Origin: Polyangiaceae bacterium
Lineage (GTDB): Bacteria > Myxococcota_A > Polyangia > Polyangiales > Polyangiaceae
Assembly: GCA_019637265.1 (NCBI GenBank)
Contig: JAHBVY010000001.1
Location: 1,054,001-1,118,000, forward strand
Direction: 5' to 3'
DNA: 64,000 nucleotides
In this document: positions 17,024 to 26,674 of the stretch, in pieces
Position numbering within the stretch: position 1 is the first letter of the stretch
Layout: every line of letters starts with the position of its first letter
Made by a program: the position numbers and the translations under genes
The notes under the pieces: model-generated
The model's database searches: none
The model's input: the letters and a program-made list of their open reading frames with translations, nothing else
What the model was told of the DNA's origin: nothing

Positions 17024-17950
17024 ATGACCCACGACCCGAAAAACGCTGAACCGGTGCTGCTGGTCGGCTCCATGGCCTTCGACGACCTGAGCCTGCCCAC
17101 CGGCGAGTTCCCCTCCGTGATCGGCGGCTCCGCCACCTACGCCGCGATGGCCGTCAGCCTGTTCGCGCCGGCTCAAATCGTGGCGGTGGTGGGGGAAGAT
17201 TTCCCTGAGGAAACGCTCGAGGCGCTGCGGCAGCGCGGGGTCGACACCCGCGGCGTGGAGCGCGCCCAGGGCAAGACCTTCCGCTGGGCGGGGCGCTACG
17301 CGCAGAACCTGGCGAGCCGCGAGACGCTGGACACCCAGCTCAACGTCTTCGCGGATTTTCGCCCCAAGCTCTTGCCCGAGCACTGCGAGGCGCGCTGGCT
17401 GTTCCTCGGGAACATCCACCCAGCGCTCCAGCTCCAGGTGCTGAGCCAATGCGGCACAGCGCGCTTCGTGGCGGCGGACACCATGAACTTTTGGATCGAG
17501 GGGGAGCGCAAGCTGGTGGAGGAGGTGCTCAGCAAGATCGACACCCTGACCATCAACGACGAGGAGCTGCGGCAGCTCGCGGGGGAGTACAACATCCGGA
17601 AGGCCGCGGCGCGCGTGCTGACGATGGGGCCGAAGCGCCTGGTGGTGAAGCGCGGCGAGTACGGCGCGATGCTGTTCGACGAGGCGGGGGTGTTCTACGC
17701 CCCGGCGTACCCGCTCGAGGTGGAGGTGGATCCGACCGGCGCGGGAGACAGCTTCGCCGGGGCGCTGTTCGGCTACCTCGCGAAGGCGGGGCGCGTCGAC
17801 CCGACGACGCTCCGGCAAGGCCTCCTCACGGCGTCCGTGGTCGCCTCGTTCAACGTGGAGGGGGTTGGGCACGCGGCGCTGTCGTCGCTCACGCCGGCGC
17901 GCGTCACGGCGCGCCTGGAGGAGCTCCGGCGACTGGTGCAGGTGGAGTGA
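17024..17950 (+). CDS. PfkB family sugar/nucleoside kinase
   Basis: 308 aa. PfkB fold: GSMAFDDLSLP and VIGGSATYAAMAV at the N-terminus; the ATP-site signature DPTGAGDSFAGALFGYLA at about residues 237-254, including the catalytic Asp in GAGD. Substrate cannot be read from sequence. Placement 60 nt after the MTA phosphorylase suggests a nucleoside or methylthioribose-related sugar (inference). A palindrome TTTCC-N4-GGAAA (17201-17214) lies within the gene, encoding DFPEE. Confidence 0.9.
   Translation: MTHDPKNAEPVLLVGSMAFDDLSLPTGEFPSVIGGSATYAAMAVSLFAPAQIVAVVGEDFPEETLEALRQRGVDTRGVERAQGKTFRWAGRYAQNLASRETLDTQLNVFADFRPKLLPEHCEARWLFLGNIHPALQLQVLSQCGTARFVAADTMNFWIEGERKLVEEVLSKIDTLTINDEELRQLAGEYNIRKAAARVLTMGPKRLVVKRGEYGAMLFDEAGVFYAPAYPLEVEVDPTGAGDSFAGALFGYLAKAGRVDPTTLRQGLLTASVVASFNVEGVGHAALSSLTPARVTARLEELRRLVQVE
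17201..17214. promoter_or_regulatory. TTTCC-N4-GGAAA palindrome
   Basis: TTTCCCTGAGGAAA inside the PfkB coding region. It is one of five copies of this over-represented palindrome; whether it is bound by a protein is unknown. Confidence 0.4.
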
Positions 17951-18075
17951 GCCGGCGTCCCAGAGCGGCCTCAGTGGAGCACCCTAGGGGGTAACGAGCC
18001 GCGCGTGGCTTCAAAGCTGGCGGCTCGGTCGGTCGGCCGTGATAGGCTCGCGGCTCTAGCAGGAGCGTGACGACG

Positions 18076-19143
18076 ATGAAAAGGTGGGCTGGCTTTCTGG
18101 GGCTGTGCGCGGCGCTCGCCGCGAGCGCGTGCGGCGGGGACGATGGCGGCGGCAATGACACCGGCGGGCAGGGCGGCAGCGGTGGTCAGGGCGGCTCATC
18201 AGGTTCAGCGGGCTCGGGGGGCATCTCGAATCACCCCTGCCAGCCGAGCGCCGACGAGTGCTACGTCGCCGGCAAGTCGGGGCCGGGCGCGGCCTGCCTC
18301 GCGCGCCACGACAACTCCGAGGGCGACGTGGTCACGCTGCGCGTGAGCCAGCTGGAGCTCTCCTCCCCCACCGCCCTACGTCAGCCGTTCTTACAGAACT
18401 CGGTGATCACCCCGAAGATCACCCCGGACGCGCCGGGCTGCTTCCAGTTCGGGCACAGTCAGTTCAACATCTTGTTCGCCTGGAACACCAGCACCCTCAA
18501 GGTGACCCAAGGCGCCGCGCCACCTCAGGCGCTGATCGGCCCCATGAGCGACGGCTCCTGCTACGCCGACTTCACGGATCCGGCGTCCGGCGCGAAGATT
18601 CAGCCGGTGGAGACGGATTTCGTCATCGAGGGCGACACTTACCGCGCGGTGTTCCCGGAGGTGGCGGTGCCCATCTACCTGGAGGACTCCCACACCAACT
18701 ACGCGCTGCTCCCGCTCCACGAGCTGGAGGTGACGGCCAAGCTGAGCGCCGATCGCGGCTGCGTGGGGCGCTACGTCCCGGAGAACCTGGACGAGACCCA
18801 GACCTGCGCCGCCAAGGAAGGCCAATTTGCATATGAGAATGGCGGCAGCTACCGCGGCTACGTGACCGTGGAGGAGGCCGATCGGGTGGACATCGACAGC
18901 CTCCGCTACAGCCTGTGCGTGCTCTTGAGCGGCAACGTGAAGCGCTGGCAGCACAAGCCCGCAGGGGAGACGATCGGCCGCTGCGTGGGCAGCACCGGCT
19001 ACGTGGAGGAGGGCGGCTACCCGAAGGGCAACTGGTGCGCTGGCACCAACCAGCCCGCGACGGACAGCTGCCACGACGCGTGGCTCATCGAGAGCCACTA
19101 CGCGGCGGCAGGCGTGAAGATCAACGGCACCTGTCCTGGTTGA
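18076..19143 (+). CDS. Putative lipoprotein with Gly/Ser linker
   Basis: 355 aa. ATG 18076 is chosen over GTG 18067 because AGGAG (18061-18065) then has a 10-nt spacing. The signal peptide MKRWAGFLGLCAALAASAC ends at a lipobox ASAC, then GGDDGGGND and a Gly/Gln/Ser linker (about 25-55). The mature domain contains many paired Cys (HPCQPSADECYV, GRCVGSTGYVEEGGYPKGNW, DSCHDAW), likely disulfide-bonded outside the cytoplasm. No family was recognised. The TAGGCT at 18043 is a possible -10 box. Confidence 0.8.
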   Translation: MKRWAGFLGLCAALAASACGGDDGGGNDTGGQGGSGGQGGSSGSAGSGGISNHPCQPSADECYVAGKSGPGAACLARHDNSEGDVVTLRVSQLELSSPTALRQPFLQNSVITPKITPDAPGCFQFGHSQFNILFAWNTSTLKVTQGAAPPQALIGPMSDGSCYADFTDPASGAKIQPVETDFVIEGDTYRAVFPEVAVPIYLEDSHTNYALLPLHELEVTAKLSADRGCVGRYVPENLDETQTCAAKEGQFAYENGGSYRGYVTVEEADRVDIDSLRYSLCVLLSGNVKRWQHKPAGETIGRCVGSTGYVEEGGYPKGNWCAGTNQPATDSCHDAWLIESHYAAAGVKINGTCPG

Positions 19144-19574: not shown

Positions 19575-22500
19575 ATGTCCCGCTGGCTGAAGTATTCCTG
19601 GTACGCCGCGCTCGCCGCGATCGCGAGCGGCTGCGCGGGGAGCTGTTCGAGCTGTTCCTCCTGTGGGGTGACGCCGCTCCCCGGTGGGTTCGAGAACGCG
19701 AAGCGCATCGACAACGCCGCGAGCGTGCGGATCACCGAGTCGGGGTTTGATTTCCTCGAGGATAATCTCGGCTCACTGGCGGGCTCCCTGCTCGGCGACG
19801 ACACCGGCGGCGGTGGGGTGATCACCTTCGAGGTGCCTTCCTCCAGCCAGAACTTGCTCCCAACCGTGGACATCGATGTCTGCCCAGGCGGCCCCGACGC
19901 GAACGCCAACCCGCCCAAGTGCCTGTTCGAGGCCGACCTCACCCAGGCCAACCTCAACATCAGCAGCAGCGCGCCCCACCACATCGTGGTGAGCGGCACC
20001 ATCGCGGCCCGGCTCCAGCACCTCCCCGTCCGAGTGACGGCTTTGTTCATCCCGAGCACGCCCAGTATCCGCCTGAACAACGGCGCCAGCTGCAATGACG
20101 CCCAGCGGGGTAACTTCGCGAACATCCCGATCGACATCCGCATCTCGATCTCCACGGAGAAGGACCCCGAGCACGCGGCGCGGCGCGGCTACTCCCGCGT
20201 GTCCATCGAACAGTTCTCGCTCAACCAAGACGCGCTCAGCAACTCGATCGCGGCGTGCGGCGGTGGCCTGACTGGGCCCATCATCAACGCGCTGAAGGGC
20301 TTCCTCATGCCCCAGCTCGTCGGGCCGCTCATCGGCAACCTCACCAGCACGCTGGATGAGCAGCTGTGCATGAGCGAGGACCCCGCGAGCGGCGCCACCT
20401 GCCCCACCGGCACCGCGGCCGATGGCGACGGCATCTGCCGCTTCACCAACGGCGACTGCGTGGGCACCGCCCTGGGCATCGATGGCAATATCGATTTGTC
20501 AGGGATGCTGGCGAGCCTCTCCCCCGGCACCGAAGGCGGGCTCGACTTCATGCTCGCCGTGGGTGGCGAGGGCACCCGCGACGACGGCTCGGGGATGCTG
20601 TGGGGCGATCTCAACCCGGTGGGTGGCGGCGCCACCCTCGGGATGATGGGCGGCGCCGAGCCCCGGCCGCTCACCACCTGCGTCCCCATCGTGCCGAGCG
20701 CGCTGCCGACTGGCATCCCGATCCCCGATGAGCTGACCAGCAACACCATCAGCGGCTGGACGGGCGATGGGCCCCACGTCGGCATCGCGCTGTCGGAGCG
20801 CTTCATCAACCACGCGCTCGCCGGCGCCTACAACTCGGGCGCGCTGTGCCTCGGCATCGGCGGCGAGACGTTGGGCGGCATGCTGACCAGCGACACCCTG
20901 GGCCTGCTCATCCCCTCCTTGAAGGAGCTGGCGCGCCAGCAGCGCACGGCACCGCTCGCCATCGTGCTGCGCCCCCAGGCGCCGCCGCAGGCGACGGTGG
21001 GCAATGGCTCTGACCTTCAAACGGATCCGGTGCTGCGGCTCGCGCTGCCGAACCTCGCGGTCGACTTCTACCTGTGGTCGAATGATCGCTTCATCCGCGC
21101 CTTCAGCGCTCAGTTCGATCTCGACATCCCGGTCAACCTGGAGGTCGATGAGAACAGCGCCCTGGCCCCGGTGCTGCAAGACATCGGCGTGAGCAACCCA
21201 CGGATGACCAACGCCCCGCTCATCCGCGAGGACAAGGACGCTGCCGCGCAGACGCTGGCCAGCCTGTTGGCCAGTCAGATCGGCGGCGCGCTCGGCGGCG
21301 CCATCGACCCCATCAGCCTGAACGACTCCCTGGCGGATCTGGGCCTCGCGCTGCGGATCCCCGCCACGGTGGAGGGCGTGGGGAGCCCCGGGCTCCGGCG
21401 GCTGCAGAAGGGCAGCGACGGCTTCCTGGGCATCTTCGCGGCGCTGGAGCCAGCCGGCGCCCCCTACGTCCACTTCAGTGAGACGGAGGCGCGCGTCAGC
21501 TCCAAACAGGTGGATCCAGCGGGGCTCACCCTCGCGACGGCCAGCGTGGACAACATCCCGCGCATCACCATCGACGCCAAGAGCAGCCTGGACCGCGGCG
21601 AGCTGGCCATCGAGTACCAGTACCGCCTGAACCAGGGCTACTGGCGCCCATGGCAGCAGAACAGCCGCATTGAGGTTCAAGACCCAAGCCTCCGCCTCCA
21701 GGGGCGGCACCAGGTCGAGGTGCGCTCCCGCGTGGTGGGTGAGCCACGCACGGTGGACCGCACCCCACCGGTGATCGAGGTCCTGGTGGACAAGAGCGCA
21801 CCCGAGGTGGAGCTCAAGGAGACCGACGCGGGTCGCGTGGCGGTCTCGGTGTACGACGTGGTGAGCCCGGCGAGCGCGCTCGAGGTGCGGTGGCAGCTCG
21901 ACGACGGCGCCTTCAGCGCGTGGACGGTGGCTGAAGGCCTCGAGCTCATTGAGGTCGGCAGCGACGCCCGTCGCCTGACGGTGGAGGTGCGCGACGAGGA
22001 GGGCAACATCGGCTCTCAGAGCCAGGGCCTGATCCGAGGCCGCCCCGATCCGACGTTCGCCAGCGAGGGCGCCTGCGACTGCAGCGTGCCTGGGGCGACC
22101 GGCGCCGGGCGTGCACCAGCGGGCTTGGTGGCGCTCGGCGGGGTGCTGCTGTTCGCAGGGCTGCGCCGCCGGCGCCGTGGTGTCGCTGCTCCTCGACAGG
22201 GCGTGGCTTCGTCAGTGGACACGACGACTGCCCTCGCCGTGGCTACCGCGGGGGCGCCCCTGCCGCGCGCCAAAGGGCAGCGCGCGGCGCGTCACCTCGC
22301 GAAGGTCGGCTTGATCGCCATCGCGGCGTCGTTCAACGGTTGTTCGTGCAGTGACACCGACGACCCGGGCGGCAATGGGGGCTCGGGAGCTACGGGCGGC
22401 ACCGGGGGCAGCGGTGGCTCGGGCGGCAACCCCACCTGCACCAACTGCGAGACCCTCGCGCCTGGCCTGGTAGGGGCCTACGCATCGGCCGTAGCCGCTG

Positions 22501-23846
22501 CGGACGGCACCATCTGGGTCGCGGCGTACAACGACCTGGGCGTGGTGGACTCACCCTCGTCGGGCGCCAACACCTCGCTGTTCGGCGACTTGGCGGTGGG
22601 TCGCGTCGGGGACGACGGCAGCGTGGCCTGGACCGCGGTGGACGGTCTGCCTTCGGTGGACTCCTCGCTGCCTCCAGGGTCCCCCGGCGGCCCGCCGGAT
22701 CCGGCCTTCGTGGACGTCAACAGCTACCGCGGCGGCCTCACGGATCCGGGGGACGACGTGGGGCTGTGGACGAGCATCCAGCTCGGCGGAGATGGCCTGC
22801 CGCAGGTCGCCTACTACGACGCCACCAACCGCGCGCTGAAGTTCGCGCAGCGGGACGATCAAGGCGAGTGGTCGCTGCACACCGTGCAGCAGAACGACCG
22901 CGCCGACATCGGGCGCTACGCGAAGCTGGTGCTCCGCGATGGGCGCCCGGTGATCGCCTTCCTCGCCATCGAGCCGGGCGCCGATGGGCGCGCCCAAGGG
23001 GTGGTGCGGGTGGCCAGCGCCCAGAGCGCGCTGCCGCGGCAGGCGAGCGACTGGGTGTTCGCCGACGCGGCGGTGGGCCCCGCCCCTTGTCGTCAGTTCA
23101 TCTGCGCATCGGGCGACGAGTGCCGCGCGGATGATGGCGTGTGCGCCACGCCGCTCACCACCTGCGACCCGAACTGCGGCAGCAAGACCAAGTGCTTCGA
23201 CCTCGGCTCAGGGCCACGCTGCGAGGACATCCTGGACCAGCGCCACGTGGACACCTACCCGGAGGCGAGCGGGCTCTACATCGACCTCGCGGTCGCTGGG
23301 AATGGCCTGGGGCTCATCTACTACGACCGCCTCCGTGGCGATCTGTACGGGGTGCGTGAGGAGGGCGGCGCTTGGCAGACGCCGGTTCTCCTCGATGGTC
23401 AAGGCCCCGGTCCATCGGACAGCGGTGACACCGGCATCGGCGCGAGCCTGTTCATCGATGGCAACGGCGACTGGCACGTCAGCTACTCTGACGGCATCAC
23501 GGAGACGGTGCGTTACCTGAAGGTGACCGGCGGGGTCACGCCCGGCACGCCCCAGGTGGTGGACGACGGCGCCACGCCCGACGGGCGCGCGGTGGTCGGC
23601 GACGACACCAGCGTGTGGGTCAACAGCAATGGCACCGTGTTCGTGTCCTACCAAGACGCGACGGGTGGCCTCCTGAAGCTCGCGACCCACGACGGCACCG
23701 GGTGGGAGGTGCGCACCCTGAACATCGACGGGTGGGTGAACGGCGCCACCCAGGTGCTGGACGTCCAAGGCGCGCCGCGCGTGATGGCGCACTGGCGTAA
23801 GGCGGTGCCCCACGCGCACGGCAGCGTGGCGTTCGTCACCCCCTGA
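19575..23846 (+). CDS. Secreted two-part protein with a mid-chain MYXO-CTERM-type tail
   Basis: 1423 aa in one open frame from ATG 19575. Part 1 (residues 1-870) starts with a lipoprotein-like signal (SRWLKYSWYAALAAIASGC) and a Cys-rich patch. It is a large extracytoplasmic domain with a TULIP-like helical stretch (IINALKGFLMPQLVGPLIGN; tentative). It ends in a MYXO-CTERM-type tail: CDCS at 834-837, a hydrophobic segment PAGLVALGGVLLFAGL, then five Arg at 864-868. Part 2 (about 885-1423) opens with a second lipoprotein-like signal (VGLIAIAASFNGC, Cys about 923), a Gly/Ser linker and repeated beta-rich blades (LYIDLAVAGNGLGLIYYD). No stop or shift lies between. In-frame GTGs at 22203, 22215 and 22239 could start a separate second gene. 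Confidence 0.75.
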   Translation: MSRWLKYSWYAALAAIASGCAGSCSSCSSCGVTPLPGGFENAKRIDNAASVRITESGFDFLEDNLGSLAGSLLGDDTGGGGVITFEVPSSSQNLLPTVDIDVCPGGPDANANPPKCLFEADLTQANLNISSSAPHHIVVSGTIAARLQHLPVRVTALFIPSTPSIRLNNGASCNDAQRGNFANIPIDIRISISTEKDPEHAARRGYSRVSIEQFSLNQDALSNSIAACGGGLTGPIINALKGFLMPQLVGPLIGNLTSTLDEQLCMSEDPASGATCPTGTAADGDGICRFTNGDCVGTALGIDGNIDLSGMLASLSPGTEGGLDFMLAVGGEGTRDDGSGMLWGDLNPVGGGATLGMMGGAEPRPLTTCVPIVPSALPTGIPIPDELTSNTISGWTGDGPHVGIALSERFINHALAGAYNSGALCLGIGGETLGGMLTSDTLGLLIPSLKELARQQRTAPLAIVLRPQAPPQATVGNGSDLQTDPVLRLALPNLAVDFYLWSNDRFIRAFSAQFDLDIPVNLEVDENSALAPVLQDIGVSNPRMTNAPLIREDKDAAAQTLASLLASQIGGALGGAIDPISLNDSLADLGLALRIPATVEGVGSPGLRRLQKGSDGFLGIFAALEPAGAPYVHFSETEARVSSKQVDPAGLTLATASVDNIPRITIDAKSSLDRGELAIEYQYRLNQGYWRPWQQNSRIEVQDPSLRLQGRHQVEVRSRVVGEPRTVDRTPPVIEVLVDKSAPEVELKETDAGRVAVSVYDVVSPASALEVRWQLDDGAFSAWTVAEGLELIEVGSDARRLTVEVRDEEGNIGSQSQGLIRGRPDPTFASEGACDCSVPGATGAGRAPAGLVALGGVLLFAGLRRRRRGVAAPRQGVASSVDTTTALAVATAGAPLPRAKGQRAARHLAKVGLIAIAASFNGCSCSDTDDPGGNGGSGATGGTGGSGGSGGNPTCTNCETLAPGLVGAYASAVAAADGTIWVAAYNDLGVVDSPSSGANTSLFGDLAVGRVGDDGSVAWTAVDGLPSVDSSLPPGSPGGPPDPAFVDVNSYRGGLTDPGDDVGLWTSIQLGGDGLPQVAYYDATNRALKFAQRDDQGEWSLHTVQQNDRADIGRYAKLVLRDGRPVIAFLAIEPGADGRAQGVVRVASAQSALPRQASDWVFADAAVGPAPCRQFICASGDECRADDGVCATPLTTCDPNCGSKTKCFDLGSGPRCEDILDQRHVDTYPEASGLYIDLAVAGNGLGLIYYDRLRGDLYGVREEGGAWQTPVLLDGQGPGPSDSGDTGIGASLFIDGNGDWHVSYSDGITETVRYLKVTGGVTPGTPQVVDDGATPDGRAVVGDDTSVWVNSNGTVFVSYQDATGGLLKLATHDGTGWEVRTLNIDGWVNGATQVLDVQGAPRVMAHWRKAVPHAHGSVAFVTP

Positions 23847-25537: not shown

Positions 25538-26674
25538 ATGATGCTACCGACCTCAAGCAGTATCCTCGCGGCGCTCGCCGCGCACCCGAGCCGCGACGCG
25601 TGGGCGGCGGCGGTGCGCGAGAGCGCGCTGAACGCCTACGCCACGCGCGAGCCGCGCCTCAGCCCCCCAGCGGCCGCGCCGAGCGCCGGCGCCGAGGGTT
25701 GGCAGACACCGTACGGTGATCTGACGGAGCTGCTCGGCCGCCCGCCCGTCACGGACACCGAGCGCTGGGCGCTGAGCGCCCTCCTGGCGCTCTCGCTCGC
25801 CTCGGACGCACGGCGGGCGGACACGGCGGACGCCCTGGCCTGGCTCGCGGCGCGCACCGATTTGGACGCGCTCAGCTTGCTCGACGAGGCGCTCGGTCAC
25901 GACGCGGAGGAGCTGTGGCAGCGCCTCGCGACGCTCGCGCGCGCCCCTCAGGAGTTCTCGCTGGGGCGCGGTGAGGCGCTGGCCGCCGCGGCAGCGCTGA
26001 GCCACAGCAAGAACCCAGCCGCGCAGCGCAGCGCGCAGGAGCTCGGCTCGCTCACGACGGACCCGCTCCTGCTCGCGGTGCTGGCTACGGGCAAGGAGGA
26101 GGGGCCCGCCGCGCTCCAAGGCGAGCTCACGGCGGCGCCGCGCCACCCGGCGCTCACGGCGCTGCTGGGGCTCACGGGGGTGCTCGCGGTGTGCTGGGTC
26201 GCGCGCTTGATCGGGCGCCTGGCGCTCGCCTACCGCCGCCCCGCGCGGGTCCGGCTGACGCACCAGGGCCTGCGCCTCGAGTACCGCACGGAGCTGCTCG
26301 GGCGGGTGCTGCGCGATCGCGAGGTGGTGGTGCCCATCGAGCAGCTCGCGGAGGTCACGCGGGAGGTGCGGTTCGCGCGCGCCGGACTGTACGCGGGGCT
26401 CGTGGCGCTCACCATCGGCATCTACGCAGGCGCGGGGCTGTTCATCGACGGGGTGCGCGTCCCCGGCGGGTCCTTCAGCTTGATTGGGCTGGCCGCGCTC
26501 TTGATCTTGGTGGGCTTGCTGCTGGATTTCGGGCTCAGCAGCCTGACTGACGGGATCCAGGGCAAGTGTCGGTTGGTGGTGAAGCCCCAGAAGGGGCCGC
26601 GGCTGTGCGTCGGCTCGCTGGATCCTCAGAGCGCCGACGCGATGCTGATGCAGCTGACCGCCGCGCGGCGCTAG
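25538..26674 (+). CDS. Membrane protein of unknown function
   Basis: 378 aa. Residues 1-195 are an Ala/Leu-rich helical domain of short repeats (WALSALLALSLASDARRADT). Three membrane segments follow: about 211-236 (ALLGLTGVLAVCWVARLIGR), 288-307 (YAGLVALTIGIYAGAGLFID) and 315-335 (SLIGLAALLILVGLLLDFGL). Between the first and second segments is a basic domain (RVRLTHQGLRLEYRTELLGR). The C-terminus ends in a short polar domain. No family was recognised. Its stop codon shares CTAG with the convergent gene's stop. Confidence 0.75.
   Translation: MMLPTSSSILAALAAHPSRDAWAAAVRESALNAYATREPRLSPPAAAPSAGAEGWQTPYGDLTELLGRPPVTDTERWALSALLALSLASDARRADTADALAWLAARTDLDALSLLDEALGHDAEELWQRLATLARAPQEFSLGRGEALAAAAALSHSKNPAAQRSAQELGSLTTDPLLLAVLATGKEEGPAALQGELTAAPRHPALTALLGLTGVLAVCWVARLIGRLALAYRRPARVRLTHQGLRLEYRTELLGRVLRDREVVVPIEQLAEVTREVRFARAGLYAGLVALTIGIYAGAGLFIDGVRVPGGSFSLIGLAALLILVGLLLDFGLSSLTDGIQGKCRLVVKPQKGPRLCVGSLDPQSADAMLMQLTAARR

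Follow-up and report, generated by a model that had tools for sequence, protein, structure and literature searches.

Here we describe a gene from a Polyangiaceae bacterium that probably encodes a polyprotein, the hairpin-shaped precursor of which would be cut into two lipid-anchored proteins. The gene lies in a 64,000-nucleotide stretch of contig JAHBVY010000001.1 (assembly GCA_019637265.1, positions 1,054,001 to 1,118,000), which we call the window and whose numbering is used throughout. A single forward-strand open reading frame (ORF) runs from an ATG at 19575 to a TGA at 23844–23846 with no stop across its 1423 codons, as a first-pass annotation of this DNA had recognized. In support of this start, many homologues also begin at the position of this ATG, with signals resembling M[SP]RW. 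A MYXO-CTERM sorting tail lies in the middle of the frame and is followed by a second lipoprotein signal, so that the tail divides an N passenger from a C passenger. The precursor has three predicted lipidation cysteines (C20, C834, and C923), and its N terminus is a lipoprotein signal containing IASGC. The features of the gene are as follows.

19575–23846, + strand: precursor ORF, 1423 amino acids (aa), for two predicted lipid-anchored proteins; fused in 99 non-identical homologues.
19575–19634, + strand: first lipoprotein signal, MSRWLKYSWYAALAAIASG directly ahead of C20, which is invariant in 32 full-length homologues.
19707–21461, + strand: predicted BPI/LBP/CETP-like (TULIP) lipid-binding region of the N product (AlphaFold2, Foldseek, VIA).
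21465–22043, + strand: two FN3/Ig-like domains of the N product (VIA Z of 8–9 to FN3 pairs, model residues 612–804).
22065–22178, + strand: internal MYXO-CTERM (TIGR03901), with the invariant C834 (codon 22074–22076), a hydrophobic segment, and RRRRR (residues 864–868, 22164–22178).
22179–22289, + strand: variable, positively charged loop, predicted cytoplasmic and always in frame (22–68 aa at 37 loci).
22290–22343, + strand: second (internal) lipoprotein signal, ending in SFNG directly ahead of the invariant C923 (codon 22341–22343).
22344–22454, + strand: Gly/Ser-rich linker of the second lipoprotein, apparent in the sequence and with a predicted local distance difference test (pLDDT) score below 50 in model residues 1–29.
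22455–23843, + strand: predicted lectin-like beta-propeller of the C product (AlphaFold2 pLDDT 91; VIA Z of 30 to PLL-type lectins).

The identity of the internal tail, which the first-pass annotation had placed at residues 834–868 by its Cys, hydrophobic segment, and five Arg, was upheld by the NCBIfam MYXO-CTERM profile TIGR03901 (curated cut-off 20 bits). This profile matched residues 831–868 with 23.4 bits, and with 30.7 bits in a six-frame search of the genome. Fourteen MYXO-CTERM tails were found in this genome, of which 13 end 0–17 residues ahead of a stop codon and only that at residues 831–868 is internal. Because the remaining tails are terminal and the profile score exceeds the cut-off, the internal tail is no chance resemblance. 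It carries the marks of its family (invariant Cys, hydrophobic helix, Arg-rich end) in a position that is not C-terminal, since 555 residues follow it.

These 555 residues had been described as opening with a lipoprotein-type signal (SFNGCSC and a Gly/Ser linker), and this description also proved correct. The C half has a positive n-region, a hydrophobic stretch, and a lipobox with an invariant Cys. C20, C834, and C923 are each invariant across the 32 full-length sequences, and in an alignment of the junction the sole invariant columns are both GCGC cysteines and the lipobox Cys, which is preceded by Gly in more than 90% of the sequences. At 37 loci, the Arg cluster is separated from the lipobox Cys by 22–68 aa, which include 4–12 Lys or Arg and few Asp or Glu, and in several members (e.g., loci L044 and L048) the Arg run of the tail doubles as the positive n-region for the second signal. 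Compared with the nearest relative, from a sister species, the N and C passengers are 69% and 75% identical, the tail and the second signal 60% and 67%, and the loop 23%. As judged from these alignments, conservation extends to the frame, to both hydrophobic segments, and to the cysteines, but not to the loop. Separately, two of the aligned homologues matched NCBIfam NF058595, the "lipo-invert putative C-terminal anchoring domain."

The first-pass annotation had proposed a comparison with related genomes, which found the halves fused in 99 homologues and encoded by separate genes in three relatives. A match was present in 46 of 59 related genomes. Among the loci read with both halves in this search, 37 were fused in one stop-free frame and two were split. 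A scan of named genomes yielded 73 loci, falling in Polyangiaceae, Sorangium, Labilithrix, Sandaracinaceae, Kofleriaceae, and others; both halves were present at 66 of these, fused at 65 and split at one. Elsewhere in the phylum (Myxococcota), searched with a profile of the junction and with the C half, members are likewise fused. Note that the relatives search and the named-genome scan overlap in genomes; the figure of 99 represents non-identical fused proteins from both, pooled with class-wide hairpin hits, such that 99 of 102 genes contain no stop and three are split. A script detected the succession of Cys, first transmembrane segment, Arg/Lys, second transmembrane segment, and lipobox-like Cys in 98 of the 99 fused proteins, and this order was recognized by eye in the last one (L140). 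A search of plasmids with the C half gave no match. Fused relatives lacking a tail-like segment, which the first-pass annotation had named as a finding that would count against it, did not turn up; the relatives retain the tail inside the fused protein. Because the fused frame recurs across related, named, and phylum-wide genomes, the fusion is, by comparative sequence evidence, old and retained.

The same recurrence bears on a lost stop codon or sequencing error, one of the explanations offered initially. The fusion is found in dozens of genera and in three complete Sorangium genomes (So ce26, So ceGT47, and So0157-2), and nothing was found in favor of a lost stop, a frameshift, or an assembly artefact. 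We therefore rejected this explanation, to which we give practically no chance.

At the three split loci, the junction looks different. At L046, the N gene ends in RTKAVK and its stop overlaps the following ATG (TGATG); the stop/start overlap is GTGA at L052 and ATGA, with a purine-rich stretch in front, at L136. In each case the overlap lies in another frame, and every C gene opens with a normal lipoprotein signal. The lipoprotein signal of the C half is internal in fused genes and N-terminal in split relatives, as it is in propeller lipoproteins that resemble the C half but are encoded alone (L139, L144, L145, L146, L270, and L271). A match to the N half was looked for at L139, L144, L145, and L146, and none was found. 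In a C-half tree, where some nodes are poorly supported, every split member stands alone among fused relatives, so that the splits look derived from the fused form. Split forms, too, appear from their overlapping genes to keep both proteins translationally adjacent.

These observations also address the proposal that there are two genes, the second starting at a GTG between 22203 and 22239. If so, the second protein would be translated from the loop, beside the fusion or in its place. Three in-frame GTGs do exist there (22203, 22215, and 22239), and separate starts do occur in the split relatives. However, an in-frame start at least 14 aa ahead of the lipobox Cys is available in 22 of 37 fused homologues and absent from the other 15, the loop is not conserved even between sister species, and inspection by eye revealed no strong ribosome-binding site ahead of the GTGs. 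Moreover, the fusion would be produced regardless, given that there is no stop. An internal GTG start was accordingly rejected as a conserved mechanism, and a second translation product has, in our estimate, a very slim chance of being the explanation.

We instead consider likely another interpretation put forward in the first-pass annotation, namely a genuine fusion that is cleaved to give two surface proteins. The fusion itself is strongly supported by the 99 homologues, and the cutting is what we infer. In the proposed pathway, the first lipoprotein signal would take the N domain (BPI-like plus two FN3-like domains) over the inner membrane, and the MYXO-CTERM segment would halt transfer and leave the Arg run in the cytoplasm. 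The short positively charged loop would remain cytoplasmic, and the second lipoprotein signal would re-initiate export to deliver the C domain (beta-propeller). The chain would then form a hairpin in the inner membrane with both passengers outside. A myxosortase-type (MrtX-like) CPBP protease would cleave beside C834 following lipidation, and signal peptidase II would cleave ahead of lipidated C923, releasing the hairpin. The outcome would be two separate lipid-anchored envelope or surface proteins, their 1:1 ratio fixed by translation from a shared message, and the benefit may be equal dosage or co-delivery. It is known that MrtX cleaves MYXO-CTERM proteins in a Cys-dependent manner, and prior lipidation has been proposed (Guo, Haft and Wall 2025, PMC11980579). 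A CPBP protein with EEAFFR and HAACN motifs (EExxxR and HxxxN) is encoded in the same genome as the precursor (C15, 202181–202600).

Note that the N product carries its own N-terminal lipobox (C20) in addition to the MYXO-CTERM Cys and may be lipid-anchored at both ends. Two of the other 13 MYXO-CTERM proteins of the genome (L258 and L263) similarly look to have an N-terminal lipobox, and most have type I-like signals.

If only the first of the two cleavages took place, myxosortase would release the N protein and the uncut second transmembrane segment would hold the C half in the inner membrane. Processing of the N part of a comparable Myxococcus xanthus protein, MXAN_5598, has been proposed (PMC11980579), which agrees with such half-processing. 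Nevertheless, we consider this outcome highly improbable, because an invariant Cys closes the second signal, preceded by Gly in more than 90% of sequences, and because split and stand-alone relatives use the same signal as a normal N-terminal lipoprotein signal.

The combination of MYXO-CTERM tail and lipobox is not confined to this family. When the same genomes were searched with the junction profile, many of the tails recovered were ordinary ones ending at a stop codon, and a minority continued in frame into a second lipobox. This hairpin is carried by at least four unrelated protein pairs, each in at least two species, and single cases were also recovered, as listed here.

GH15-like (glucoamylase-like) protein plus alpha-amylase: L184 and L222.
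Subtilase/PKD plus lamin-tail domains: L217, with the same C part in L242.
Zn-phospholipase-C-like protein plus a domain without an assigned family: L177 and L228.
MopE-repeat proteins on both sides: L178–L181, L227, and L239, with an FGE-sulfatase domain in L178 and L179.
Trypsin plus PQQ propeller (single case): L238.
Beta-helix plus polysaccharide deacetylase (single case): L234.
NIDO plus MopE (single case): L185.
FG-GAP (single case): L182.
Domain without an assigned family plus peptidase M2 (single case): L243.

Given these pairs, we lean toward the view that Myxococcota use the sorting-tag-plus-lipobox hairpin as a general protein separator, which would yield two surface lipoproteins in equal amounts from each gene and would have been acquired independently by unrelated enzyme pairs (e.g., the glucoamylase-like protein with alpha-amylase). 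In such a separator, the Arg run of the internal tail would either serve as the n-region of the next lipoprotein signal or pass directly into it. A different arrangement was observed at L245 (2–6211), where a MYXO-CTERM-like segment, a signal that is apparently not of the lipobox type, and a large RHS/YD-repeat protein share one frame.

Several points weigh against the interpretation of the gene as a polyprotein. At an E value of 0.01, TIGR03901 matches the tail in just 21 of the 32 homologues. MrtX-like proteins are present in 57 of the 59 genomes searched, all with scores under the curated cut-off of NF040593 (myxosortase MrtX; 180 bits), and the score in the genome studied here is 116 bits. 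Because the scores in all genomes fall under this cut-off, the role of MrtX-like proteins as the processing enzyme of the precursor is assumed. The case for cleavage and lipidation is built by reasoning from sequence. A control count of sequence patterns speaks for the polyprotein, in that, among all loci retrieved, a lipobox-like signal is next in frame for none of 30 terminal tails vs 85 of 91 internal tails; these values are to be read as a contrast and not as a rate because our own searches enriched the set of internal tails. Finally, the fused protein could stay whole, as an inner-membrane protein with two transmembrane segments, both domains periplasmic, and the tail serving as a mere membrane anchor. 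This arrangement would fit with the lack of a stop in 99 of 102 genes, and there is nothing unusual, as membrane topologies go, in a transmembrane hairpin whose loop is positive. However, a plain transmembrane hairpin has no need of cysteines that are invariant at both predicted cut sites while the loop varies freely, and the split relatives manage without a covalent link. We therefore regard a protein that stays whole as improbable and retain the two-product polyprotein as the preferred reading.

To characterize the two products, we compared predicted folds, because sequence searches of the PDB and Pfam gave no useful relative. PDB searches recovered no useful relative of the N or C half, and in Pfam there was no match to the BPI-like N half at an E value of 1 and nothing above cut-off for either half. 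The AlphaFold2 model of the N passenger (mean pLDDT 83) exhibits a tubular fold of the BPI/LBP/CETP kind and, after it, two FN3-like domains. Its match to BPI has a Foldseek E value of 4e-16 and a VIA Z of 15.4 over 437 residues, with a root mean square deviation (rmsd) of 5.6. The predicted fold thus resembles those of human BPI and LBP and of the bacterial TULIP proteins P47 and OrfX, and it suggests that the N product may bind lipid or the envelope. The high-confidence model of the C passenger (pLDDT 91) is a beta-propeller closest to the Photorhabdus PLL-type lectins (VIA Z 30.3, 299 residues, rmsd 2.4). Resemblance to these lectins suggests that the predicted C product may bind glycans, although the shared propeller fold is itself no proof of sugar binding. 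For both BPI/TULIP proteins and PLL lectins, sequence identity in the structural alignments is approximately 10–15%, and function is not implied. The N region (19707–21461) is also an example of a two-lobed, BPI/LBP/CETP-like predicted fold in a bacterial surface protein family that has no Pfam match.

The gene also has conserved neighbors. Upstream, a lipoprotein-like gene of 358 aa with a Gly/Ser linker (18067–19143) has a match near 30 of 73 homologous loci. A PfkB-like sugar kinase, named by eye (17024–17950, upstream), and a downstream protein with hydrophobic segments (25538–26674) are each conserved near about 30 homologous loci.

Annotation takes MYXO-CTERM as a terminal tag, and MXAN_5598 is the sole published internal case that we found, where it was described as rare. 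The family is deeply conserved, its three predicted lipidation cysteines are invariant, natural split orthologues exist, and the same hairpin recurs in unrelated protein pairs, which together suggest that bacterial polyproteins with a two-protease separator are ordinary in the phylum. Such precursors could serve as one-chain test substrates for myxosortase, for the lipid transferase, and for signal peptidase II, and the hairpin might offer a compact way to obtain two surface proteins from a single gene. Proteomic searches built on the assumption that each gene has a single mature product would misinterpret such proteins.

Among known systems, fbcH of Bradyrhizobium yields cytochromes b and c1 from one precursor and is a bacterial polyprotein whose parts come apart at an internal signal sequence. 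It differs from the present case in using type I signal peptidase, in encoding a respiratory enzyme, and in having neither a sorting tag nor lipidation at the junction. TraA and other ordinary MYXO-CTERM proteins (TIGR03901), which are substrates of MrtX, share the GCxC motif, the hydrophobic helix, and the Arg run. In contrast, the tail described here is not terminal, its Arg run leads to a second export signal, and the N product has an N-terminal lipobox. In Haloferax, an ArtA substrate whose tripartite tag is not terminal is processed, according to the title of the report (Abdul Halim 2017, ref. 46 in PMC11980579). As far as that title indicates, it is similar in having a sorting tag within the protein and different in being archaeal and using another enzyme.

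A search of the accessible literature on bacterial lipoprotein polyproteins and fused sorting tags returned nothing beyond the paper on MXAN_5598, in which the internal MYXO-CTERM was called rare and gene fusion was suggested by the authors (PMC11980579). That protein is a close parallel in layout, with MYXO-CTERM in mid-ORF, a second exported domain following in one frame, and processing proposed for the N part (PMC11980579). A layout of this kind is also seen at L183, which has an OmpA-type second half and apparently a type I signal. However, the C part of MXAN_5598 is a beta-barrel/OmpA protein, whereas that of the present precursor is a second lipoprotein with an invariant lipobox Cys, and the precursor belongs to a phylum-wide family with split orthologues. 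Relative to the MXAN_5598 report, the new elements are a family in which the arrangement is conserved, the presence of a second lipobox, and the fact that the hairpin recurs.

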